Origin: Nocardiaceae bacterium
GTDB lineage: Bacteria; Actinomycetota; Actinomycetes; Mycobacteriales; Mycobacteriaceae
NCBI GenBank assembly: GCA_021372355.1
Contig: JAJFUQ010000215.1
Coordinates: 1-64,000, forward strand
Length of the DNA: 64,000 bases
Reading direction: 5' to 3'
Every line of letters starts with the position of its first letter. The stretch's first letter is position 1. Below the pieces are notes generated by a model, which saw only the letters and a list, made by a program, of their open reading frames with translations, ran no database searches and was not told where the DNA came from. The position numbers and the translations under genes are program-made. Shown in pieces: positions 3,129-28,736 of this stretch.

Positions 3129-3536
3129 TTATCCAGTGAGAGCCAGCTGTCGCGGCTGTGTGCGGGTAGCACGTAGGTCGCGACGACCGACCGCTTTGGC
3201 GAGCAAGTCGACGACGACAGGTACGCGAGATCGATCGCCGCGTGCGCGTACCCGGCGATCGATCTCCGACAGGACTGGAAGAGTCACACGGGTTTGAATC
3301 CACCCGGTCATGTCGTCAGTGGCAGGGATGCCGGATCGGTCAATGGCATCGAAGTCGAGCATCTGCGGCGCCCCGACTTCGTCTTCCATCTCGAGTTCGA
3401 TTGCCAGGAGGTCGGCGATGGTTTGTCCGAGTGGCAGCCCCGCCCTCTTCGAGTGCAGCTTCAATATCTCGACGAGCGTCGCCGGGGCGGTCACAACCTG
3501 AATCTGTCGGCGGTTACCTTTGCGCGGCTGCGCCAT
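3129..3536 (-). CDS. Small plasmid-core regulator of unknown family
   Basis: This is a 135-residue basic protein. The ATG at 3536 is chosen over a TTG at 3539 because AGGGGAG lies 6 bases upstream of the ATG. Two segments, about residues 10-50 and 75-115, each read as a strand followed by two helices ('VTAPATLVEILKLHSKRAGL' and 'RVTLPVLSEIDRRVRARGDR'). That pattern fits two ribbon-helix-helix-like units, though I cannot name a family. It lies between the replication gene and parB. Its upstream region carries repeated CTAACAG/CTGTTAG sites, which suggests a DNA-binding autoregulator, perhaps of copy number. The function is inference only. Confidence 0.6.
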   Translation of the reverse strand: MAQPRKGNRRQIQVVTAPATLVEILKLHSKRAGLPLGQTIADLLAIELEMEDEVGAPQMLDFDAIDRSGIPATDDMTGWIQTRVTLPVLSEIDRRVRARGDRSRVPVVVDLLAKAVGRRDLRATRTQPRQLALTG

Positions 3537-3579
3537 CAAACTCCCCTTCCCTTGTCTCTGTCCTGCATCATGCCGGTAT

Positions 3580-3685
3580 CTGTTAGCTAACAGGCGACGC
3601 CACGCCGGTAAGAATCTAAATGTGGCTAACAGATTGGATCGATCGGGGGCCGCCGACGAATGTCAGACCACATTCAAGCTGTTAG
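3580..3685. promoter_or_regulatory. CTGTTAG/CTAACAG operator-like repeats
   Basis: A perfect 14-bp palindrome CTGTTAGCTAACAG (3580-3593) is followed by the half-site CTAACAG at 3626-3632 and by CTGTTAG at 3679-3685. All lie in the 430-base gene-free stretch upstream of the small regulator at 3129-3536. The spacing and orientation suggest cooperative binding of a dimeric repressor or initiator. Confidence 0.55.
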
Positions 3686-3814
3686 GCAATGGGTTTGACC
3701 TGCATAAACGCAGAACTGCGGCGCATCGGTGCGCAGGATTCTGAGGCATAGGGATCGCGCCGTCAAGATCGGCGCAGCGCGCACTCAACGGGCATCGACG
3801 CACGCGGCGATCCT

Positions 3815-3967: not shown

Positions 3968-4642
3968 CTAGACGTTCAGGTACAACCGCAGCGCCTGCTC
4001 CGTGAGCGCGCTGCGCGATCCGGCACCCCACTCCTCGGCGAGACGATCAAGCTGCTCGGCGTCTGACGCGATGATGCCGGCGAGCGCCACGCGTGCCGGA
4101 GCTTCAATGTTCCGCCTGCGGCGGGTTGTCACCGAACGCTGGAACAGTGCGCTCGGCTTAGCCTTTCGAGCCGTGCGCCAGTGCTTGGACAGAACCGTTG
4201 CGTTGTCTTCGACCGCGTCCAGGACGATCTGCCCATAGGTGCGTGCGTTGCTCGGATCCGCAGTCCGTTCCGACAGCGCCAGATCTCGCAGGGCCCGGAA
4301 TACATCCGGAGCGATTGACGCCTCCGGTGGCCGCACGCGAGAGGGAGCCGCGGGGACCGCCTTAGGAGTCGTAACGGCCGTTGCCCTCGAAGCCGGCTCA
4401 GCGTCGAACTTCGGCTCCGGTACCTCGAGGGGGTCGATGCGCTGCAGCGGGCGTACGTTCTCACGACCGGGCCGGTGATCCTCTGCCGCGGCCTTCGGCT
4501 CAGCGGGGGCTTGCTCCTCCGCTTTTGGTGTTGACTGTTCGGCCGGCTTCGGAGTCGGCGTGGGCAGCGGAGGCAGAAGATCGTTCAGCTCGGCGATGCC
4601 ATTGTTGGAGAAGGCGCCTCCGCGGCGCTGCGGGCGGCTCAC
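3968..4642 (-). CDS. parB: ParB-like centromere-binding protein
   Basis: This 224-residue protein has a long proline/alanine/glutamate-rich linker (about residues 20-110) and a C-terminal segment (about 175-224, 'IEAPARVALAGIIAS...SRSALTEQALRLYL'). That segment has the strand-helix-helix look of ribbon-helix-helix DNA-binding domains. Such proteins serve as the centromere-binding partner of small ParA ATPases in type Ib partition systems. The GTG start overlaps the parA stop in a GTGA, so the genes are coupled. The repeat array upstream of parA is the likely binding target. The assignment rests on context plus fold pattern; it is not a canonical HTH ParB. Confidence 0.7.
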   Translation of the reverse strand: MSRPQRRGGAFSNNGIAELNDLLPPLPTPTPKPAEQSTPKAEEQAPAEPKAAAEDHRPGRENVRPLQRIDPLEVPEPKFDAEPASRATAVTTPKAVPAAPSRVRPPEASIAPDVFRALRDLALSERTADPSNARTYGQIVLDAVEDNATVLSKHWRTARKAKPSALFQRSVTTRRRRNIEAPARVALAGIIASDAEQLDRLAEEWGAGSRSALTEQALRLYLNV

Positions 4643-5568
4643 GCCACTCCCCCACTCAGGGCAGGTGCCTCCGCGAGTCGGGTGAGGACCTCGCGGGTCA
4701 GGTTGAGGTAGTCGCTTGCCAGTCCCGACGGGTCACGGCTCCAGAGGCGCTCCTTGCCCGGCGGGAGTTGACCGCTGATGGTCTGACGAAGCACCTCGAT
4801 GCGCGTGAGCTTGTTCGCCTCAGCGAGCTCGACCAGCTCTGCGGGAGTCACGTGACGGTTGCGCATGTCAACTGCCGAAGCCTTGTCCGAGCGGATGAAG
4901 GTCCGGAATGCCTGCACGCCGGAATCGCCGAGGATCTCCTCGATCGATTCGAATACGTCGCGGTTGCGGACTGTCGCGCGTGGGTTGGCATCGAACAGCA
5001 CAACGCCGAGGAGCTGGATGGCTGCACCGTTGGCGCGGGCGCGCTGGTAGCGGGCCGCGAGCAGTTCAACACCGGACAGACTGGCGTCGTCGTCCTTCGT
5101 GGGTACGAGCAGGTGTGATGCCGTCGCCAGAAGTGCATCGAGCAGCGGTGCGTCACCAGGTCCCGAGTCGATCAGGATCAGGTCATATCCGCCTTCTACC
5201 TGCAGTTTCGCCAGTGCGGCACTGAGGTTCCCGGCCATATCGATGCCCTATTGTTCGGAAAGGGCAGCGGTTGCGGAGACTGCGGCAAGGACAGGTCCCC
5301 CAGGAATCAGGTCCAGGTTCTCTCGGACGTCAGTCAGCGGCACGAGAGGCTCGCCGTATTGCAGCGTCATGCCGAGGCTGCGTCCGCGATCCCCCTCTGC
5401 CCCCAGGTCCGAGTTCGTGAGGTTCGCCTGCTGGTCAGAGTCGACGAGCAGAACTTTGCGGCCCGAGGCAGCGACCAGGCTGCCCAGCGCGCTCACCAGG
5501 CTGCTCTTACCCACGCCGCCCTTTTGATTGGCCACTAGGAGCGTGCGTGCCAATGAGGTGCTTGTCAT
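4639..5568 (-). pseudogene. parA: ParA partition ATPase interrupted by an in-frame TAG
   Basis: The frame opens at ATG 5568 and shows a deviant Walker A 'NQKGGVGKSS' at residues 14-23. After 106 codons it meets TAG at 5250-5248, then continues without any shift through 'LILIDSGPG' and a normal ParA C-terminus to 4639. The sum is the usual ParA length, about 309 residues. One base change (for example CAG to TAG) explains the break. An ATG at 5238 follows an AGGG seven bases upstream, so the C-terminal 199 residues might be made separately. The ATPase site would then be split, because the P-loop is in the first piece. It could be an inactivated gene, a suppressed amber or a sequencing error. 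Confidence 0.8.
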
Positions 5569-5589
5569 GTGCGTGACCGTAGATGCCCA

Positions 5590-6490
5590 ACCGGTGTCCC
5601 TATCGGCAAGACACGGCCGTTATCCGGACTGTAATCCGACTGAATGTCCGACCGTGACGTCGTACGGTTGCTCTGCCGACTCGACGGACGTATGACGCCC
5701 AGCCACTCGCCCCCATCGTCGGTGGTGCGTACGGCGGTTGAACGGAAGGTCGTTCGTGTGTCGGTACGTCCCAATACCGCGCGATTCACCGTTCGTCCCG
5801 TCGGCAGTGGTTCGGCTGGTTTGTCGGTCTTCCTGCGTCCGTACGACGGCTGTAGGTGCGCCCTATCTCCCGGCCGCAGGCTGGCCGAGAAACCGGCCGT
5901 CTACCGGAAGGTTGCACGACCGATGCACTGCCGATTTTTTGGCCGCATGTCGGTCGTCACGACGGCTGTACAACGATCGGTCACATCGCCATGCCTCGTC
6001 CGTGCAGTTGTCCGGCAGACGGACGTTGATCGGTCATCTCAACAGTCGTACGACGTTCCGTCACAGGGCCGTGCATCGGTCGAAGGGCGGCCAGCCCATC
6101 AGTCGGTACTCGGTCGGAGATACTGCCGTTCATCGGCCGAACATTCGTGCGGCACTCAGACGTCAATCGGTCATTTCGACCGTCGTACAACGATCCGTCA
6201 TACCGCCGTGCATCCGGCGAACGTCAGCCGTCCGATTGGTCGTTCCTCAGTCGGAGACACCGCCGTTCATCGGCCGAACATCTGTCCGGAACAACGACTA
6301 TCCGTCCGTCGTACAACGTGCCGACATACCGCCGTCAGTCGGCCGTTTCTCAATCGTTCCGACAGTCGTGCACCTGCCGTTCCTACGGCCAGTCCATAGG
6401 CCCGCCAGCGGCAGCGCGACAGGCCGTTATGTCGCCGTATCTGCGCCGTTGCACTGGCCGGTCATACGGTCGTAAATCGTGTCTGCAACG
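5590..6490. repeat. Degenerate CGG/CCG repeat array, candidate centromere (parS)
   Basis: About 900 bases directly upstream of parA are packed with short CGGTC/GACCG/CCGT units, often about 10-11 bases apart. Longer imperfect copies occur. A block at 6111-6142 recurs at 6252-6283 with only a few mismatches, both ending CATCGGCCGAACAT. Blocks starting GTCGTACAACG occur at 6182 and about 6309, with relatives near 5963 and 6045. All six frames are open in places only because of the repeat composition, so no gene is called. Helically phased repeats upstream of a parA operon are typical of type Ib centromeres, which also serve as the par operator. Origin iterons are the alternative. Confidence 0.65.
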
Positions 6491-7800
6491 GGTGTAACCC
6501 GGTTGTTGATTGGGCTACAGGCGGTTACTTGCTTGGATTAATGCCGCCCATCACACGTCCGCCGGTGCGGGTGGCCGACCGGATCGCAATACGGGCTTCT
6601 CACTGGGCTTAACAGTCGAACACGCTGGTCACACCCGCAGCCGATTTCGGCGTGCGCCTCCACTCGGCACTTCGCCGAAGATCGGGGGAGTGCCCATTGA
6701 CTAGCTGCCGCCAAATTGTCGGCTGACAAACTTGAGTTAGCGCCGGTTGCCTCTCACATCGAAGCGTCGCAACCGGATCGGCTCGACCGCCGATGCGACT
6801 CGCACGGAACCATTGTTCGCTCGACCTTGCCATCTCAGCTTCGCGGCGAATCGGCCGATGATCATCGTGATCGGCCGCGTTCGTCGCTCTGCCTACTGCT
6901 CGTCCTGGGCTGCTGCGATTGGCAACTCGCATGCCGGCGCGCGAGCATGCCGGTGGCGACAGCTGGGCTATCGCCGAGACTTTATTGGCCGGGGACATGA
7001 GGAGTGACGTGACCGTGGCCGCAACCGTCGTCCGCTGGACCGCGTCGATCACCGAGAATTGTCAGCAAAGCGCGCCGTGACAGAGGCGCGTGAACCGATG
7101 GCCACGACAGCCTCACCGCCTATGTCGGCGATCCGGGATCGTCAAGGCTGATCGAAAGGCCGAGCTGGAGGTAAGCGACCTACGTCAGAGTTCGTTCAGA
7201 ATCGAGCACTGTTCACCTTTGAACTCGAACCACCGCTTCGCCGGCACCGATCGGTCGATGCTGCTCGCGAGTCGGTGACTCGAAGTCGAGGTGGGGGGAG
7301 TGGGGGAGCGACGCAGATCCAGACGGCGGAGGTGTCGGTTCGATCCCGTTCGGCGGGATACCACTCGCACCGTCGACGCACATCGACCGGCGGTCACAGC
7401 ATCACCGGAGGAACTCTCGGCGGCGAGCAGTCTGCAAGCCCGTTGGTCGCCGGAGTCCTGACCGTTCTCGAGGATGACTAAGTGTCTTTCTATCGCTGCA
7501 TTGCCACTTCGGTGCCGCGACCAGCGGGAACTGGTGGCGACTCGTGGCGAAAGTTGCTTTCGTGAAGTCGCGGATGCGATACCGGCTTGTCCACTTGGCG
7601 CACGCGCACAACATCAATCCGTCAACTCGTTGATGCCCCCCGCTGTTTGGTCCTGTCAGAATCACGGACGCGAGATCAACGGGGCCGCTGGTTGTCTTGG
7701 CGTATGGGAGCGCATGTTGGGCGAGGGTCGCCAGTTGAATTTGTCCGCAGTTCGTCTCTAACCGAAGCTGGTCGGGAGTGGGGGAGGGGAGCCCGGCCCG
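6491..7800. other. 1.3 kb without a supportable gene
   Basis: No open frame here has a convincing start, ribosome site and protein-like composition; the candidates on the two strands overlap each other and are arginine-rich. I see only minor structure: CGGCCGAT (6852-6859) paired with ATCGGCCG (6870-6877) around a GATGATCATC palindrome, a direct repeat GCATGCCGG near 6930 and 6945, and a small hairpin ATCCCG/CGGGAT at 7343-7359. Its place beside the partition array makes an origin or decayed sequence possible. Confidence 0.4.
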
Positions 7801-20932: not shown

Positions 20933-21466
20933 GTGAAAGCCCGAGTGCTAGCCGTACTGCTGGCGGCTGCCGTTCTTGCCGGATGCGGGAACGATACCGA
21001 GCTCGCCAGCGACGATCATGCCCACATCGATCCGCTCAATCCGAGGCACATGACACCTAACCAGGTCGCGACAACCGCGATGGGCGTCATCCTGTCGTGG
21101 AAACCGGCCAAGGACTCGTCGTCAACGGATGCGTTCCGGAGGGCGCAGCGCTGGCTAGGAGGGGAGCTCCTGGAGGCAGCCCGAGTCACGACCACCGCCG
21201 AATCTGAGGTCCGGCCCGATCCGCGCTGGGCGGTTTGGCGGGAGTCGCGTGACGTGATCAGCGCCGCCTGCATTCGTTCGGATTCGACACCAAACGCCCC
21301 CGCTGGAATGCGGACGGTCGTCATCGACGTCACCTGCACCCAGAACGTCCTGCACTCGTCCGGTGCAATCACTCCGCTGACACCAGAGACCTGGCGGGTC
21401 TCCGTCACGAAAACCGAGGGCGGGTGGCTGCTCACCGACTATCGCTTTCAGAGAGAGGACAAGTAG
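20933..21466 (+). CDS. Lipoprotein of the conjugation operon
   Basis: This 177-residue protein has a lipoprotein signal: basic start, hydrophobic 'VLAVLLAAAVLAGC' and Cys at about residue 18. It would be lipidated and held on the outer face of the membrane. GTG 20933 is preferred because AAGGGA sits six bases upstream; an ATG at 20918 overlaps the previous stop and is the alternative. The mature part has no recognised domain. Lipoproteins at this place in the operon may be structural, or may act in exclusion or coupling to the cell wall. Confidence 0.75.
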   Translation: MKARVLAVLLAAAVLAGCGNDTELASDDHAHIDPLNPRHMTPNQVATTAMGVILSWKPAKDSSSTDAFRRAQRWLGGELLEAARVTTTAESEVRPDPRWAVWRESRDVISAACIRSDSTPNAPAGMRTVVIDVTCTQNVLHSSGAITPLTPETWRVSVTKTEGGWLLTDYRFQREDK

Positions 21467-23322
21467 TGCCGCCACAGATCAGAGCCGAACGTCCCCACGG
21501 CAATAGCGACGTCGCGACGCTGAAGCTGCTCGGCGTCGTCATCCCGCTGTCGTTTCTGCCGGTGCTGGCCTTTCGATTTGCGGGGGAGCCGCTCAGCAAC
21601 GGGGCCTGGAACCCGCTGGGCCTGTTAGCGCTGTTGGCGACCGGGAAGCGGGCGTGGCCTCTAGCTGCGACGATAATCCTGATCGCCTTGGTCGTCGTTG
21701 TCTTCGTAGCAGTTGTTGGCGTTGCGTTGTGGTGGGGTAAGCAGCGCTTCAGCGTCGCCGAGACTGCGAGCGATCGCCGCCTGGACCGGCTTGCCGCCAC
21801 GATGCCTGCACCCCGCTCCGTACGGGAAACGTCGCCTGCGTACCTTGCTCAGACTGCCGATCGCCTTGCCGGTTCGATCCCAAGCGAACATCCGGCTCGG
21901 AACGGCCTTCTGGTCGGTGTGACGGTCGCCGGCCGACGCGAGCTCCGTTCGCCTTGGGAGTGGGTGATCATCGCCATCGCAGGTGCGCGAATGGGTAAAA
22001 CCGCGGCGCTGGCAATTCCTGCGGCGTGCGCCGCACCCGGGGCATTAGTGGCCACCAGCAATAAGAAGGACTTGTACACCCACACCGCAGGCGTCCGTTC
22101 AGTGCAGGGCAGGGTTTGGCTTTTCGATCTTCAGGGCGTCACGACCGGAAACCCGCGTTCGCGAGCGACGTTCTGGTTCAACCCGCTGCTGCCCGTAGTG
22201 GACCTGCCGTCCGCGAAAGTCGTTGGCGGCTATTTCATTTCCTCGGCCGTCGCCGAGAACGCTCGGGTCGACGCCTACTTCGACGGAAACGCTCGCGACC
22301 TGCTCGGTTCGTACATCCTCGCGGCCGCTCTCGCCAGTGGCGATCTGCGGCACGTCGTCGAATGGCTGATCGACACACAGTCTCGGGTTCCGGTCACTGT
22401 TCTGGAGACGCACGGCTACCGCGGGCTCGCCGAGACGATGCGGGGAAAACAGGCTGTCAATGCTCGTCAGCGTGACGGCTTCTACGACATGGCGCGGCGT
22501 TTCTTGGCGCCGCTCGACGAGCCCCGGTTCGCCGAGGCGGTGCTGCCGTGTCGACGAACGGTCATCGGTGTCGACATGAACCAGCAGCTCACGTTCATGC
22601 CTGGTGAATACGTGCATCGGCTCGAGGAGTTCAATCCCCCGGAGTTCGTCCGCATCGGCATTGACACGGTGTACGCACTGTCGAAGGAGGGCGAGGACAG
22701 CGCTTCGGCGATCGCAACTGCGCTGATCGGAGCAATTCTGGAAGCCGCTGACCACCATGGCGCAGCCCAGCCGTCGGGTCGGCTCGACGTGCCGTTGGTC
22801 GCTGTGCTCGATGAGGCGGCCAACATCTGCCGACTGCAGCAGCTCCCGGATTGGTACTCGCACTACGGATCTCGCGGAATCATCCCGATCACGATCCTGC
22901 AGTCGCCGTCGCAGGGAAAGCGGGTGTGGGGCGAAACCCGTTATGCCGCAATGTGTGATGCAGCGAACCTGGAGTGGTACGGCGGCAACGTCGCCGACGA
23001 CGGCTACCTCGACAGCCTTTCGAAGTCCATCGGCGACCACTATGTGCGCACCGAGTCGCACACCGCGTCGCTCGGCGTGTTCAACGGGGGAGCGGGCAGT
23101 CGTCAGGCCGGATGGGAACGGGAACGAATCTTCGATACCTCCGATCTGAAGGCGCTTCCATCCGGTCGGGCGATCGTCACCCTGGCCGGTTCGAAACCGC
23201 TTCTCGTTCGGAAGGTGTTCTGGCAGGACACACCTTGGGCTGAGCGGATCGAGCAGTCAGTGTGCGACTACTCCGGCGCGGTTCGACAGGTTTCTCCGGG
23301 AGGCGAGTCGCGTGAGCTTTGA
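21466..23322 (+). CDS. VirD4/TraG-type coupling protein
   Basis: This 618-residue protein has two N-terminal hydrophobic helices (about 20-40 and 65-95). Walker A is 'AIAGARMGKTAAL' near residue 180 and Walker B is 'VAVLDEAANICRL' near 445, followed by 'ITILQSPSQGKRVWGE'. This is the type IV coupling protein fold that brings the relaxase-DNA complex to the channel. GTG 21466 overlaps the preceding TAG (TAGTG); the frame extends upstream to 21424, but that part is in the previous gene. It ends inside the next gene. Confidence 0.88.
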   Translation: MPPQIRAERPHGNSDVATLKLLGVVIPLSFLPVLAFRFAGEPLSNGAWNPLGLLALLATGKRAWPLAATIILIALVVVVFVAVVGVALWWGKQRFSVAETASDRRLDRLAATMPAPRSVRETSPAYLAQTADRLAGSIPSEHPARNGLLVGVTVAGRRELRSPWEWVIIAIAGARMGKTAALAIPAACAAPGALVATSNKKDLYTHTAGVRSVQGRVWLFDLQGVTTGNPRSRATFWFNPLLPVVDLPSAKVVGGYFISSAVAENARVDAYFDGNARDLLGSYILAAALASGDLRHVVEWLIDTQSRVPVTVLETHGYRGLAETMRGKQAVNARQRDGFYDMARRFLAPLDEPRFAEAVLPCRRTVIGVDMNQQLTFMPGEYVHRLEEFNPPEFVRIGIDTVYALSKEGEDSASAIATALIGAILEAADHHGAAQPSGRLDVPLVAVLDEAANICRLQQLPDWYSHYGSRGIIPITILQSPSQGKRVWGETRYAAMCDAANLEWYGGNVADDGYLDSLSKSIGDHYVRTESHTASLGVFNGGAGSRQAGWERERIFDTSDLKALPSGRAIVTLAGSKPLLVRKVFWQDTPWAERIEQSVCDYSGAVRQVSPGGESREL

Positions 23323-23770
23323 TGTCGACGACGACTGGGAAGCCCCCGAGCCCCCGGTCCCGGAGGAGCCGAAGCGACCGAAGTTCAAGTACGCCAACGT
23401 CTACGAGTGGGTTGAGCAGTGGCTCTCGCGGACGATTCGGCGTGAGATGAATCCGCTTGCAGGAGCTGGGTTGTCGTGGGATCACCGGTGGTGGGCCTAT
23501 CCGGAAGTCGTTGCACGGCTGTCCTCCCTCCACCTTGCGTGGGAAGAAGCTCGCTCGTCGAAGGACCTCAGCGCAATGTCTTCTTGGTGGCTGCACCACC
23601 TCGACCCTCACCTGCGGGTGATCTTCGACTCCGAGCATGGTCCGATGTCACACGCCAATCGTGAGAACACGTTCCTCGGCTGGCCGGCTCTGCCGGTCGC
23701 GCCGGCACCGCCCGAGGTGAAAGCGGTGACGCTTGGGTTGCTCACGGGCGATGAGCCGCCGACGATGTAA
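23312..23770 (+). CDS. DUF4913 protein
   Basis: This 152-residue soluble protein has an acidic Pro-rich N-terminus and a Trp-rich body ('NVYEWVEQWLSRTIRREMNP', 'WDHRWWAYPEVVARLSSLHLAWEEAR', 'SSWWLHHLDPHLRVIFD'). This is the DUF4913 pattern, repeatedly found beside coupling-protein genes in actinobacterial conjugative elements. Function unknown; a relaxosome or coupling accessory role is inferred. GTG 23312 overlaps the coupling protein gene by 11 bases. It is the last gene of the plus-strand transfer operon. Confidence 0.8.
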   Translation: MSFDVDDDWEAPEPPVPEEPKRPKFKYANVYEWVEQWLSRTIRREMNPLAGAGLSWDHRWWAYPEVVARLSSLHLAWEEARSSKDLSAMSSWWLHHLDPHLRVIFDSEHGPMSHANRENTFLGWPALPVAPAPPEVKAVTLGLLTGDEPPTM

Positions 23771-23862
23771 TGCCTTGAATCGGCCAACAAGGAAATTCGA
23801 CGTCGGGCGAGCAGAGCTCATGCGAATCTAGGCTCAGCATTCGTGCGAGAAACGGGGGAACC

Positions 23863-24045
23863 ATGGCCGGAAAGTTTGAGCTTTACACAGACAAGGCAGG
23901 TAAGTACCGCTTCCGCCTTAAGGCCAGCAATGGCCAGGTCATCGCCGTTGGCGAAGCCTACGAATCGAAGGCCGCTGCGAAGAATGGCATCGAGTCCGTC
24001 AAGAAGAATGCTCCAGACGCAACGGTCGTTGAAGTAGAGAGTTGA
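23863..24045 (+). CDS. YegP-like (DUF1508) small protein
   Basis: This 60-residue protein reads as one complete DUF1508/YegP unit: 'FELYTDKAGKYRFRLKASNG', 'GEAYESKAAAKNGIESVKKNA'. A GGGGGA ribosome site precedes the ATG. The family has no settled function. It stands alone between the transfer operon and the convergent relaxase gene. Lysine content is higher than in its neighbours. Confidence 0.85.
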   Translation: MAGKFELYTDKAGKYRFRLKASNGQVIAVGEAYESKAAAKNGIESVKKNAPDATVVEVES

Positions 24046-24079
24046 TCGCGGCAATACAGATGCGATCGACGGCCTCTCA

Positions 24080-27000
24080 TCAGTTGCCGAGGCCGTAACC
24101 AGGACTTTCGCGGTGGCGGTCAGGCGTGAGTGGTTGTGAACGGCCGGTCTCCGATTGCTTGGTTCGGTGACGGCTTTGATCGGCGCTCGGCGAGCGACGC
24201 ACAACGTCAGCATCGACCTCATTCGTCTGCTGCTCGAGTTCGCGATAGTCATGCTCGCAGCGTGCGACGTGGGCGTTCAAACGCGCAATCTCTGAATCAG
24301 CCGCGTCTATTGTCAAGCGCATCCGCGCCGCGAACGTCCCATCGTCTCGGATACCCGCATTGCCCGACTGCTGCAAGTATTCGATCGCGGCACGATGGCG
24401 GGCCTGGGCTTGACTCAGTGCCTCTCGCGCTTGCCACAGTGAGACGCCGGCCTGTGCCCAACGCTCACGAGACGCTACCTGGTCGGAGAGAAGAACGGCG
24501 TCTGTTCGTTCCGAACGCTTTACCGGCAAGGTTGCAAACCGCAGCCGTGAATTGACGACATCGCGACGCTTGTCGGTCAGAGCATCCAGTGGGTCGTCTC
24601 CGGGCTGGCTGGCCGTTAACCGGGACATGGCGATTTCTGTGAGAGCGGCATCAAATGCCCTGCGTTGTTCCGCGTCTTCACCGGGCGTTCCGCATGCGGT
24701 GAGCCATGGCGCTTCCTCGTCCTGTGCCGCCGTCAAGTAGCGAGCAACGTGTCCGCCAATATGAGCGAGTTGTTCGGACGCCCATCGTGCGACGATGAAA
24801 TCAATCGCGGCAGCCCTGGCGCTGATGGCGACGAGTTGATAGCGGCTGGCGAGGTCATTTCGGCGGCGTGGCAGATCTCGAGTTGCTGCGGCAAAGCTCT
24901 GCGACGCCTCCGCCACGCCACCTGAAGCGGTGGCGGCCGTGATCAGTTCCCGGGTGTTCCATCCGAACGACTCAGACTGCCCGGTCGCATAGACGATCCT
25001 GTCCCACACAGGGTCCGCAAGAAGCTTCGCCAACGCAGCCTCACCGTGTGCTTCCACGATGATCTTCTCGGCCAGGCCGGAGTACAGAACCATCGCGGCC
25101 TGGTTGTAGAGCGTCAACGATTCCGGTAGCGATTCAGCCTGCGTTCGCGCCGCCGCGAGTTCTTCGAGGGCGGTCTTCTGTGCGCCGTCGCGAGAGATGA
25201 TTCGCGTCAGAAGTCTTCGTGCTCCCGGGTGCGGATCGGATACATGCTCGGCATCGAAGTCGGGCAGTTCGTCGTTGGCGACGTACACGTTGTTCGCATG
25301 CTTGCCGCGGGTAAGCGCGACGTACAACGACTGACGCGTCATTGCTGCGTCGGCAACAACATGGGCAGTTGCAACCGTCATGCCTTGGGCGCGATGAACG
25401 GTCGAGGCGTAGCCAAGTTGGACGTGGCTGGTTACGTAGTCGACAGGAAGGTCAGCTTGGCCGCCGCTGACCAGGTTCTCGACGAGTGTTGATCCGTCGG
25501 TTCGGGTTTCGGCGATGCGCCACAGATCGCCATTCTTGATCCGGCCTCCACGCTTACCGTCTCTGCCGCGCACTTCGTATTTGGAGGTGTTTCGACGGGT
25601 GACCACGATGTCTCCGGCCGCACCAGCTAAACCATCGGACAGCGAGACTTCGGGCCCGGTGACGGTGCCGTTGGCACGGTAGAACGCCGCAGCTCGGGTA
25701 TTGAGCTCGATGACAAGATCGTTCGTGGGGGCGATCATGAGCGCCAGATTGCCGGCGGCGATATCCGCGCTGTACGCGCCAAACACCAAATCGGGGAGTT
25801 GGTGCTTCATCGCTTCCCTGATGCGTTGATGCTCCGCGTACCAGTCCAATGCCTCGGCTTGTCCGGCCCGCAAACGCAGGGACGCGTCGGCTTCGCCGCC
25901 AGTGGTGAAGCGATGCACGGTCGACAGCATGGGCGCCTGCGTCCGCTCGGCGAGGTCACGCAGGATCCCGGACGACTCGACAGAAGGCAGTTGTTGTGGG
26001 TCGCCGAGCAACCGAACAACGGCGCCCTCGCGAGCGGCGATCTCGGACAAGTCGGCAAGGTTGCGGGCCGATGCCATGCCCGCTTCGTCGACGAGCAGCA
26101 GGTCGCCTGCGGTGATTCCGGTCGGCAGCCCGTGCTGGTCGCGCGTGAGTAGGTCGGCGATTGTGCGTCCCTCGACACTGATTTCTTCGCCCAAGACTTC
26201 CGCAGCTCGCGCTGATGGTCCGAGTGCGATGACCTTGCCGTGGCAGCGTTCCCAGGCTCGAGCTACGACCTTCATTGCGGTCGTCTTGCCCGTTCCAGCG
26301 GCTCCGACACCTACCGCAACGTGCTGGCCCGCGGTAAGGAAGTGGTTGACAAGCGCCGTCTGATCCGTGCCGAGTTCGTGCCCGGAACTGCGCTCGATGT
26401 CTGACATCGCACGTTCAATGATCCGCTGGGGCACAGTGAGATTGCTCGGTTCCTCAGCACGGAGCCGCATGTACTCCTCGGCGTTGAGGACTTGTTGGCT
26501 GGTGTAGATCATTCGTGCGGGATCGGTGGTGTGTAGTCGCTGGACGCCTCCGATAGCTCGGTCCGCGAGTCGGTCTGGCGCGTCCCGATAGACCCTGAAT
26601 ACTTCGATCGACCACCCGGTTATGACCATCTCGGTGGCTTGTTGGGCGGCGGCGCCCAGGTCATGATCGGAGCTGAATCGGAACTCTCGCAATCGCCGCT
26701 GAACTTCAGCCGCCACGTTCCAAACTGTCCAGGTCCCTTGCCGTCGAGAAAGCGTGTCTATGACCTGCTGCGCGAGGCCCGGCAATTGCTCCGGACGGTA
26801 AGTCAGACGCGCATCGGCTATCGCATCGATTTGAGACAGCGGCGACTCGCTGCCGGTTAAGCGGGCAGCACGATCCGCCCACTCGGAACGTAAGCCAGCC
26901 AGTGTCTGTGGGTTCTTCTTTCCCTTGCGGGTGTCGAGAGTGGCTTGCTGGGCGATCGCATATTGGAGCTTCTTGGTCGGGTTCTTGCCGTTCTGTGCGA

Positions 27001-28075
27001 GGTACTCGTCGGCGAGTTCGGCCATGCGTTCCTCGATATCTCCGCGGCGGGAGAACTCCGCGAGTAGAGGGCGTGGGACGCCATCGACTTCATAAACCGG
27101 CTGCTTGCCGCTGGCTGCGGTCGGCCCAGGGGAGAAGCTGACACCGAGCTGGCGCCCGAGAATGTCGGTGATGCGGGAGTTGTACCGCTCCGACGCCGCC
27201 ACGGCAGCGCGGTAAAAGACCCGACCGTCGATTGTGGTCCAGCGTCCGTCGGCGTGAACCCTGTTGGCAAGGGCGGCGTGGGTGTGGAGGTTAGGGTCGC
27301 CCGCTCGATTGTCCCAGTGGTCGAAACGGGCGATCAGTAGTCCATCGGCTTTGATGACTTCCTTGCCGCCGGCGCCACGACGTGTGTAGGCGACTTCGGC
27401 TTCGATCCACGCGAGGGTTTCAGTGACTGCCTGGTCGTGAGCTTGTTGTACGGCGCGGCGTAGGTGGTCGTCCCCGAGCCCCCACAGCACGGAGACCGAC
27501 TTCGCGGGTGTGAACACAAGGTCATATCCGGCGACAGAGGCTCGCGTGGCGGCGTACTGGTCGGCGATCCACTTTCTGATGTCGGCGTCTGCGAGCACGT
27601 CGCCGTTGATGCCTCGCTGCGCTCGCAAAGAGGCTTCGGCGACTTCGAACTTGATGCGCTCCTTTACGTGAGCCGACGGATAGCAGCCATGCTCGACCCG
27701 ATAGTCCGCGCATGCCTTCTCGACGTCGAGAACATAGTCCGCGCGTTCAGTCTTCACGAATCCGCGTCCCAAGGCGGTTCGCTGCGACCACTCGATCAGA
27801 GCATCAATGCCCGCAGAGGCAGGTGGCTTCGATTCCAGCGCAGTGGGGGTCCGAGCGGCTCCGAAGACGCTTCGCATGTGGGATTCGGTGACTACTTGAC
27901 CGACTTCAACGCCAACAAGCTCGGTAAGCTTTCCGTGCCATCGACCTGGGGGAGCGCCCGCGGCGGTGTAGTAGTCGGCAGCGTCTTTCACCCGCGATTC
28001 CGGCGCATCTCCGTTCGCGGTGTGCTTCGTCAAATAGGTGTATCCATCCCCAGCACTGAGCTTGTGGATGGTCAT
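24080..28075 (-). CDS. traA: MobF-family TraA relaxase-helicase
   Basis: This protein has 1331 residues. The N-terminal relaxase domain has 'SAGDGYTYL' and 'AADYYTAAGAPPGRW' with candidate nicking tyrosines. The three-histidine metal site lies in 'DHWDNRAGDPNLHTHAALANRV' (about residues 265-290). The second half is a RecD/TraI-type helicase, with Walker A 'GAAGTGKTTAMK', 'LLVDEAGMAS' and 'TVHRAQGMTVATAHVV'. It would nick at oriT, stay bound to the DNA 5' end and unwind the strand during transfer. ATG 28075 is chosen because the MobF consensus starts 'MTIHKLSAGDG'; the open frame above it is not family-like. It faces away from the gene at 28239. Confidence 0.9.
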   Translation of the reverse strand: MTIHKLSAGDGYTYLTKHTANGDAPESRVKDAADYYTAAGAPPGRWHGKLTELVGVEVGQVVTESHMRSVFGAARTPTALESKPPASAGIDALIEWSQRTALGRGFVKTERADYVLDVEKACADYRVEHGCYPSAHVKERIKFEVAEASLRAQRGINGDVLADADIRKWIADQYAATRASVAGYDLVFTPAKSVSVLWGLGDDHLRRAVQQAHDQAVTETLAWIEAEVAYTRRGAGGKEVIKADGLLIARFDHWDNRAGDPNLHTHAALANRVHADGRWTTIDGRVFYRAAVAASERYNSRITDILGRQLGVSFSPGPTAASGKQPVYEVDGVPRPLLAEFSRRGDIEERMAELADEYLAQNGKNPTKKLQYAIAQQATLDTRKGKKNPQTLAGLRSEWADRAARLTGSESPLSQIDAIADARLTYRPEQLPGLAQQVIDTLSRRQGTWTVWNVAAEVQRRLREFRFSSDHDLGAAAQQATEMVITGWSIEVFRVYRDAPDRLADRAIGGVQRLHTTDPARMIYTSQQVLNAEEYMRLRAEEPSNLTVPQRIIERAMSDIERSSGHELGTDQTALVNHFLTAGQHVAVGVGAAGTGKTTAMKVVARAWERCHGKVIALGPSARAAEVLGEEISVEGRTIADLLTRDQHGLPTGITAGDLLLVDEAGMASARNLADLSEIAAREGAVVRLLGDPQQLPSVESSGILRDLAERTQAPMLSTVHRFTTGGEADASLRLRAGQAEALDWYAEHQRIREAMKHQLPDLVFGAYSADIAAGNLALMIAPTNDLVIELNTRAAAFYRANGTVTGPEVSLSDGLAGAAGDIVVTRRNTSKYEVRGRDGKRGGRIKNGDLWRIAETRTDGSTLVENLVSGGQADLPVDYVTSHVQLGYASTVHRAQGMTVATAHVVADAAMTRQSLYVALTRGKHANNVYVANDELPDFDAEHVSDPHPGARRLLTRIISRDGAQKTALEELAAARTQAESLPESLTLYNQAAMVLYSGLAEKIIVEAHGEAALAKLLADPVWDRIVYATGQSESFGWNTRELITAATASGGVAEASQSFAAATRDLPRRRNDLASRYQLVAISARAAAIDFIVARWASEQLAHIGGHVARYLTAAQDEEAPWLTACGTPGEDAEQRRAFDAALTEIAMSRLTASQPGDDPLDALTDKRRDVVNSRLRFATLPVKRSERTDAVLLSDQVASRERWAQAGVSLWQAREALSQAQARHRAAIEYLQQSGNAGIRDDGTFAARMRLTIDAADSEIARLNAHVARCEHDYRELEQQTNEVDADVVRRSPSADQSRHRTKQSETGRSQPLTPDRHRESPGYGLGN

Positions 28076-28238
28076 CACTCGGCATAGTTTGCCAGGCCCA
28101 GGCCACCATGCCGCACATCTAGTGCAAGAGGTGTGTAGAAGAATCATTGGACGGTCATATGTAGAAGCGAGTGTTAGGCGAAACGGGTGGATTCCGAGGT
28201 TGTTCGGTTGTCGGTGGCGGGCTGTAGGGTGCGGAGCC
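28076..28238. other. Candidate oriT / divergent promoter region
   Basis: This 163-base gap lies between the relaxase gene and the divergent accessory gene. It is less G+C-rich than its surroundings and holds the direct repeat TGTAGAAG at 28134-28141 and 28160-28167. Relaxase oriT sites commonly sit here. No nic consensus can be confirmed by eye. Confidence 0.4.
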
Positions 28239-28736
28239 ATGAGTTCGTCATCGCAAGCGGCCGCTCGCCGCTCGTTGCGCCCACACACTGGCGCCTCCGT
28301 GAAGGAGAATCTCCGCAAGGCTCGAGAGGAGGCGAAGGCAAGGCAGGCCAGGCTCGAAGAACTGGCGTCGCCGATTCACCTGGCCGCCGAGCGGCTCGAC
28401 AGGCTCGACGGAACCGTCGGCGCTAAGGCGTCCGCAGCTGAACGCAAAGAAAAGGCGCTCGCCGAAGCGCGTGACAAGAAGATCGCCGCGATAATCGCCG
28501 AGTACGAAGCAAAGATCACCGACCTCCGTTCATTGGTCGAAAGGGACATGGAGGCCGCGCGCGCGGCGCAGGGCGACGAGGAACGGGCGGCGCTCGCCGA
28601 GTATGCGCAAGCGGTCCTGACATTCCGCGATCGTGCGTCGCTCCCCGAACTGGCAGCAGTACTTGGCATCAGTGTTCGCGCGGTGAAGACCGTGATAACC
28701 GAGGCTGAGTCGACCCTGGCCGGCCAGTCCAGCTGA
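28239..28736 (+). CDS. Coiled-coil protein with C-terminal HTH, possible relaxosome accessory
   Basis: This 165-residue protein has an N-terminal basic segment and a long Ala/Glu/Lys/Arg coiled coil (about residues 20-115). A C-terminal segment 'SLPELAAVLGISVRAVKTVITEAE' is an HTH of the sigma-70 region 4 type. It is divergent from the relaxase across the candidate oriT and coupled to the next gene by TGATG overlap. DNA binding at oriT or regulation of transfer genes are both possible. The start is ATG 28239; the upstream extension runs antisense to the relaxase gene. Confidence 0.7.
   Translation: MSSSSQAAARRSLRPHTGASVKENLRKAREEAKARQARLEELASPIHLAAERLDRLDGTVGAKASAAERKEKALAEARDKKIAAIIAEYEAKITDLRSLVERDMEAARAAQGDEERAALAEYAQAVLTFRDRASLPELAAVLGISVRAVKTVITEAESTLAGQSS

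Follow-up and report, generated by a model that had tools for sequence, protein, structure and literature searches.

A long phased array of degenerate boxes upstream of parA as the probable centromere of an RHH-ParB partition system in Mycobacteriales

Introduction

In type I partition systems with an RHH ParB, the passages covered here describe a static binding of this protein to a centromeric array of repeats (PMC13245405). Passages of the same kind characterize the known systems closest to the locus analysed below. The delta/omega/parS system of pSM19035 combines a ParA with an RHH ParB and with contiguous short repeats that overlap promoters, and at least four contiguous repeats are needed for activation of the ParA ATPase (PMC9499535). 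In parFGH of TP228, the RHH protein ParG coats an array of degenerate boxes, parH, acts on the ATPase through its N-terminal tails and represses its own operon (PMC7308502). The RHH ParB of pCXC100 from Leifsonia has a centromere that consists of direct repeats only and lies upstream of the operon (PMC5016525). A single chain of F TraY comprises the complete RHH dimer fold, and three of these proteins bind DNA side by side as a 'train' (PMC12117103). In these accounts, RHH ParBs with repeat arrays, including degenerate boxes as in parH, are known already.

The locus described here resembles pSM19035, TP228 and pCXC100 in pairing a predicted RHH ParB with an array of short repeats, and lies in a stretch of 64,000 nucleotides, the window, which is part of a 71.6-kb contig in a draft genome of 5.37 Mb and 281 contigs. 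An original prediction had proposed that a phased repeat block at 5590-6490, upstream of parA, is a large centromere bound by an RHH ParB-like protein. We have followed up this proposal by a computational analysis of the array, of the adjacent genes and of the corresponding loci in relatives.

Results

The partition genes and their surroundings

The parA gene (4639-5568, minus strand) is situated directly downstream of the array and encodes a deviant Walker ATPase (KGGVGKS) that matches AAA_31 and CbiA in Pfam. Counted from the chosen start, its P-loop begins at residue 16, and its distance from the upstream stop is no more than 32 codons, which leaves no room for an N-terminal HTH domain; a deviant Walker ParA lacking this domain is typical of type I RHH systems. 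The ParA frames of 20 relatives are open over 305-382 residues. In the window, an in-frame TAG at 5245-5247 splits the gene into 5248-5568 and 4639-5238; to either side of it the frame is conserved, at 58-71% identity to eight relatives. Relatives with an intact parA exist, and the source genome has no second close copy, the next best having 43% identity. The TAG may be a draft error or a recent loss, and the window copy may be non-working.

The candidate array-binding protein, of 224 residues, is encoded by the parB-like gene (3968-4642, minus strand), which overlaps the end of parA. With its position downstream of parA, an N-terminal tail of low model confidence and predicted RHH folds towards the C-terminus, it has the arrangement of a type I RHH ParB. 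No Pfam domain of HTH/CTPase ParBs was found in this protein or is listed for 21 family members, and the locus carries an array of short boxes rather than the longer inverted repeat of type I systems with such a ParB. In the family alignment, a short conserved N-terminal stretch (RR.AF.P) is followed by a variable tail and by a pair of conserved blocks. RHH_1 of Pfam is matched at E-values of up to 0.5 by 17 of the 21 members; the window protein has a weak RHH_1 match in the C-terminal block, its 18.3 bits being below the curated 20.5.

The structural model of this protein (mean pLDDT 76; ten-residue blocks of 81-97 over residues 101-160 and of 90-97 from residue 181 on) has two predicted strand-helix-helix elements, one at 107-146, where another helix follows up to 161, and one at 183-222. 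The window ParB is thus predicted to hold two RHH modules in one chain, like F TraY. Its best VIA-align matches are six F relaxosome entries (Z 7.8-8.6, the first five 8.2-8.6; 10-11% identity; 2.8-3.3 A over 88-93 residues), followed by DndE (6.4) and AvtR (6.2); the tool cautions that a best Z of 7-8 is usual even where a model has no clear match. The matched relaxosome chains are taken as TraY from the passages covered of PMC12117103 and from the fold, not from a table label; it is on the predicted structure, then, that the single-chain RHH pseudo-dimer fold of TraY is found. Foldseek gave no significant E-value for the model, and a profile search of PDB sequences yielded three weak rows, none of them labelled as the pCXC100 ParB.

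Downstream of the parB-like gene, a small gene (3129-3539, minus strand) appears RHH-like by eye and has no Pfam match. Beyond the array, about 1.3 kb (6500-7800) contain no obvious gene, and about 2 kb separate parA from the next annotated gene in relatives L131-L134; the gene-poor stretch is perhaps an origin. Genes for a TraG/TraD-type coupling protein and a TrwC-type relaxase occupy 21424-28318, the relaxase gene (24080-28318) lying about 19 kb from the parB-like gene. The contig is probably a conjugative plasmid.

A phased array confined to one place

The proposed parS centromere and parAB operator at 5585-6500 (no strand assigned) is a phased array of about 80 degenerate units of 11 or 12 bp. 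The array was scored with a cyclic hidden Markov model whose unit of 12 columns may be shorter or longer by one base. Its log-odds amount to 235.6 nats, whereas four shuffles do not exceed 29.0. Along the sequence, every 110-bp segment starting at 5611-6436 scores between +15 and +42 nats, with a peak in the middle of the array (41.8 nats per 110 bases) and about zero from 6491, as opposed to a maximum of 0.02 nats in 1139 segments starting before 5400 or after 6700; the model used, trained on 5585-6490, is in-sample, the comparable fit on shuffles being the one that reaches at most 29.0 against the real 235.6. By these segment scores, the predicted limits of 5590-6490 are right within about 10 bases. 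On a lenient Viterbi path the array would continue to 6603. The periodicity is far above that of shuffles and confined to the array within the window, since neither the spectrum nor a scan with the model detected a second array of this kind in the 64 kb.

Rfam gave no match at gathering scores in 5000-7500, and a promoter scan, which is uninformative for actinobacteria, found none. The DNA of the array has no blastn match among 72,556 plasmid records, and arrays were therefore compared by phase and unit profile.

On the plus strand, the unit has the consensus CGGYCGTw.aww with the core CGGYCG(T), and its box is the pseudo-palindrome ACGGCCGT. At least four of the six letters CGGYCG are matched by 73 of the 80 units, all six by only 10, and two units are on average identical at 45% of positions. 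Lengths of 11 and 12 bp occur in 40 units each, and the mean spacing is about 11.5 bp (11.51 in the unit model). The autocorrelation of 5590-6490 is raised at lags 11, 12, 23, 34, 35 and 46 and also at 57, 69, 80, 103, 126 and 137; relative to 500 dinucleotide shuffles, lags 11, 12, 23, 34, 46, 57, 80, 103, 126 and 137 are enriched with z of 5.0-9.7 and lag 10 is depleted (z -3.3). Spectral peaks at 11.5, 5.72, 3.82 and 2.86 bp form a single harmonic series with a period of about 11.45, and the power near 3.81 is 19.9 in the 300-base segment from 5951, compared to at most 3.5 in the listed segments outside the array.

What had been predicted about periodicity therefore holds in kind: it is above random, including at lags 11, 12 and 137, and a short phase exists. 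Its value of 10-11 bp has to be revised, as units of 11 and 12 bp are equally frequent and lag 10 is depleted. The copies expected at 130-140 bp were recovered as a 137-bp direct repeat and as five 33-bp copies spaced 80, 137, 126 and 57 bp, which corresponds to 7, 12, 11 and 5 units. The repeat consists of two adjacent copies on the plus strand (5974-6110 and 6111-6247), 12 units each and 71% identical without gaps; it is a past duplication in which the phase was kept.

The two unit lengths tend to alternate locally (lag-1 -0.33, p 0.002), also without the second 137-bp copy (-0.34, p 0.002). Alternation is most regular in 5841-6290 (no strand; mean 11.44), a stretch whose p of 0.0008 applies to a choice made after inspection. 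A strict long-range regularity across the whole array is not supported (residual 1.20 versus 1.17 when permuted, p 0.60). The opposite of regular mixing is seen in 11 other, mostly mycobacterial arrays of mixed spacing (L045, L061, L064, L066, L068, L071, L074, L075, L076, L078 and L079), whose residuals exceed those after permutation (p of at least 0.99); in the unit string of L045, the 12s come first and most of the 11s later.

Open reading frames across the array

Of the open frames predicted for the array, the two longest, which overlap, extend over 259 and 251 codons. Lengths of the same rank are reached by 4% and 0 of 300 shuffles, respectively, and average 254 and 175 codons in ordinary, mostly coding segments of the window. 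Altogether three frames of the array were without a match in Pfam, and the frame of 251 residues had no tblastn match in plasmids. In relative L129, a part of the array just upstream of parA (3402-3731) is annotated as hypothetical protein CKJ58_RS27285. It lies inside a stretch scoring 24.3, and the annotated protein is probably an artefact.

Arrays at the parA loci of relatives

A tblastn search with the ParB-like protein found 39 PLSDB plasmid records, 22 from Rhodococcus, 10 from Mycolicibacterium, two each from Nocardia and Mycobacterium, and single ones from Hoyosella, Gordonia and a 'Candidatus' organism. ParB relatives were further present in 24 of 301 genomes of the family, the window's own included. 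From the 25 rows of these genomes, 20 upstream regions remained after removal of the window's own and of four weak ones (L023-L026), and 34 of 35 further named loci from genome contigs could be used, L059 having only 58 bases upstream. With the window, this amounted to 55 loci, of which 39 are distinct after removal of 16 duplicates.

In a spectral test that omits the harmonic at 3.0, the best period directly upstream of parA is 11.5-12.06 in 54 of the 55 loci, and 51 of them exceed 99% of 1136 control segments from the same loci. The one deviating locus, L078, has a best spectral period of 10.0 and a unit length of 11.69 in the unit model. All 39 distinct loci beat their four shuffles directly upstream of parA in the unit model, with a margin of at least 24.5 nats in 38 and of only 2.0 nats (43.7 versus 41.7) in L077. 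A repeat array upstream of the par operon, as is typical of type I RHH systems, is thus a general feature of these loci, and the window has the highest log-odds of the 39.

Mean unit lengths range from 11.51 in the window to 12.09, unit numbers per array from 19 to 122, and the information per unit in the fits from 1.3 to 5.3 bits. Ten arrays were fitted without a slip over up to 121 (L041), 108 (L081) and 97 units (L042), counts that may include weakly fitting flanking DNA. By an automatic end rule, the arrays are 240-1392 bp long with a median of 552, which is approximate because the rule failed for L034 and L042 (108 bp); the window array measures 1044 bp by this rule and is the fifth longest of the 39. 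The unit fits were set to start at least 30 bases beyond the P-loop codon, and the arrays begin 30-175 bases from it. A cyclic fit that included coding DNA had been discarded, having run into genes for L030, L031, L032 and L041, because 12 is a multiple of 3.

The two highest controls belong to a second phased signal in L048, which was set aside as another, longer repeat by eye. At about 500-1300 of this locus (reverse-complement coordinates), near the parAB genes of R. koreensis, a repeat cluster contains the palindromic core GTGATGCACCGTGCATCAC many times; it is perhaps a second centromere or iterons.

Further records and controls were evaluated over the 500 bases before the annotated parA in 11 additional plasmid records, with 100 shuffles each; the annotation of three of these and the DNA of L129 were known beforehand. 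The best period is 11.38-12.04 in all 11, and nine surpass their shuffles, L130 (11.8 versus 11.4) and L136 (13.1 versus 12.0) narrowly; L135 and L138 stay below the shuffle maximum. As L128 and L033 represent one and the same plasmid, and the array of L130 is almost that of L077, nine records remain, none of which has more than 30 of 487 14-mers in common with any one of the 39 loci; seven of these nine pass. Among 24 controls from eight of the 11 records (four other ParA genes and 20 other CDS), the highest value is 9.6, versus 11.8-43.5 for the nine passing records. In the window's own genome, three other ParA-like places reach at most 6.2 on another measure, on which the array has 10.3-34.2.

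Further away, 14 loci of another actinobacterial family that encode a similar protein (L110-L123), as well as L127, have no P-loop pattern on the same strand within 4.5 kb, and the 14 have no periodic signal of the window's strength (10.3-34.2). The highest values among these belong to L123 (9.6, at 3.67 bp) and L110 (9.4, at 3.79 bp). Similar proteins lacking a nearby P-loop pattern suggest that the double-RHH family may extend beyond partition. Two loci of other families, L126 and L125, include a parA, and their weak signals lie close to 12 (11.99 and 11.57). In phages, tblastn found no match for the 114-residue ParB core at an E-value of 0.01. Two of the additional plasmids carry dual partition systems, a second ParA with an annotated ParB being found no more than about 2 kb away from the RHH system (L130, 5618-8239; L137, 5302-7888).

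The unit profile and its link to ParB

Units are more palindromic than permuted columns in 32 of the 39 loci (p < 0.05), seven not being significant; palindromic units are expected of a site for an RHH dimer or pseudo-dimer. The window's profile is resembled beyond column permutation by 33 of the 38 others, with five exceptions. Most loci of Rhodococcus, Hoyosella and Nocardia have a GGCC-like core and most mycobacterial loci a CG..CG-like one; L044, L058 and L067 are among the exceptions to this pattern. Across the 39 loci, profile distance tracks ParB distance (Mantel r 0.726, p 0.0005), also among the 648 pairs with a ParB distance above 0.25 (r 0.56). This correlation of sequences amounts to a linkage, which joint descent would yield as well as direct contact.

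Eleven pairs of arrays could be aligned, and the four most informative columns of the unit were compared with the four least informative. In five pairs (58-77% identical), mostly the more diverged ones, the consensus columns are significantly slower to change than the spacer columns, as in L079/L080 (0.143 versus 0.379, p 1.2e-5) and L027/L029 (0.233 versus 0.508, p 1.6e-5); the other six (76-99% identical) display no significant slowing. Larger indels between paired arrays are mostly near multiples of the unit (24, 24, 12, 11, 13 and 37), and scattered indels of 1-2 bases occur as well.

Discussion

What can be concluded about the role of the array? Arrays of the same type lie at the matching gene on many large plasmids of relatives and are very probably the DNA elements through which these plasmids are distributed between daughter cells. 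We are confident that the array is the parS of a type I RHH-ParB partition system, unusually long, degenerate and coded by its phase, for a predicted single-chain double-RHH ParB, and probably also the parAB operator. The proposal of a large centromere for an RHH ParB-like protein has gained support from the comparison, namely from all 39 distinct loci (L077 barely), seven of nine further records, the negative controls, the unit profile that follows ParB divergence and the slower change of consensus columns in five of 11 pairs.

A reading in which the array is only an operator, through which ParB controls parAB with the true centromere elsewhere, has a low probability in our estimate. It would suit the arrays' abutting parA in relatives (30-175 bases from the P-loop codon) and the repressor function that the passages covered of PMC5016525 and PMC7308502 also ascribe to RHH ParBs. 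The 19-122 units, however, are far beyond the need of a repressor, and the 64-kb window contains no second such array. Even less probable are replication-origin iterons bound by a Rep protein: phased plasmid repeats are often iterons, and about 1.3 kb without an obvious gene follow the array (6500-7800), but the arrays are found at parA in 39 loci, their profile tracks ParB, and a mean unit identity of only 45% is unlike iterons as generally known. The notion of DNA devoid of function, whether decaying, of low complexity or coding for repeats, is strongly disfavoured and the least probable of all, for although the two long overlapping frames, the stop in the window's parA and the 137-bp tandem duplication could be cited for it, the same architecture recurs in 39 distinct loci despite the absence of a plasmid blastn match to the array DNA, a 12-bp phase is fitted over up to 121 units without a slip, the three frames are without Pfam match and the 251-residue frame without plasmid tblastn match, and 11.45 is no multiple of 3.

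How might such a centromere operate? We infer ParB binding, its cooperativity, the helix, the contact with ParA and the repression of parA as follows. One ParB chain would occupy each unit of 11-12 bp, both RHH modules reading, as a pseudo-dimer, one ACGGCCGT-like box in the major groove, and about 80 chains would lie side by side, joined by protein-protein contacts. Single boxes would be weak, and specificity would arise only from phase and number. B-DNA has about 10.5 bp per turn. As a spacing of 11.45 bp exceeds this turn, neighbours would be rotated by about 33 degrees (about 51 degrees at 12 bp), and ParB would wind round the DNA as a helix. The N-terminal tails would reach ParA and trigger its ATPase and thereby plasmid movement, a step carried over from known RHH systems such as pSM19035. 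Coverage of the parA-proximal end would repress parAB. A model of one chain per unit, with neighbours in contact, is the simplest and accounts for palindromic but slightly asymmetric units, the strict phase, the weak boxes and their large number.

More tentatively, and with less than even confidence, we consider that the phase itself may encode the centromere, with specificity residing less in any one box than in the whole: a lattice of boxes in register over up to about 120 units would match a continuous helical ParB scaffold of fixed rise, which the window would follow at about 11.44 by alternating 11 and 12. If so, the DNA array would be a printed record of ParB filament geometry, and lineages would differ in rise (about 11.5, 11.7 and 12.0) together with their ParB.

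For a set of large linear and circular plasmids of Rhodococcus, Nocardia, Gordonia, Hoyosella and mycobacteria, the array provides a recognisable candidate centromere; the stretches of 11 relatives, for which only CDS rows are listed, carry no annotated centromere feature. The phase upstream of parA is a simple detector where alignment fails. Dozens of natural variants in spacing and motif could be used to ask what number of RHH proteins a working partition complex requires, and whether it is defined by phase alone.

How, then, does this centromere compare with those described? Its contiguity has a precedent in the requirement for contiguous repeats in pSM19035. That plasmid has six sites of 7-10 non-palindromic 7-bp repeats each and a dimeric ParB, whereas in the window about 80 boxes, spaced at about 11.5 bp, form a single run, and the ParB is a predicted single-chain double RHH. 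The parH site is described, in the passages covered, as degenerate tetramer boxes with AT-rich spacers, bound by ParG as an intertwined homodimer; here, by contrast, GC-rich 8-bp pseudo-palindromes recur at 11-12 bp and the protein architecture is another. F TraY shares with the window ParB the single-chain double RHH, as predicted for the latter, and the F relaxosome supplies its best structural matches; TraY, at 10-11% identity, is a conjugation accessory with three sites at oriT and a role in relaxase activation, and is not known to have a ParA partner, whereas the gene of the window ParB lies next to parA. Among the matches listed (titles, beginnings of abstracts and passages, mostly from the open literature), such an array is described nowhere. 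In the literature covered, and with parH and pCXC100 compared by their description only, what is new is the size of the array, a phase that is maintained while the sequence is almost free, a ParB predicted to hold a double RHH in a single chain, and the occurrence across large plasmids of Mycobacteriales.
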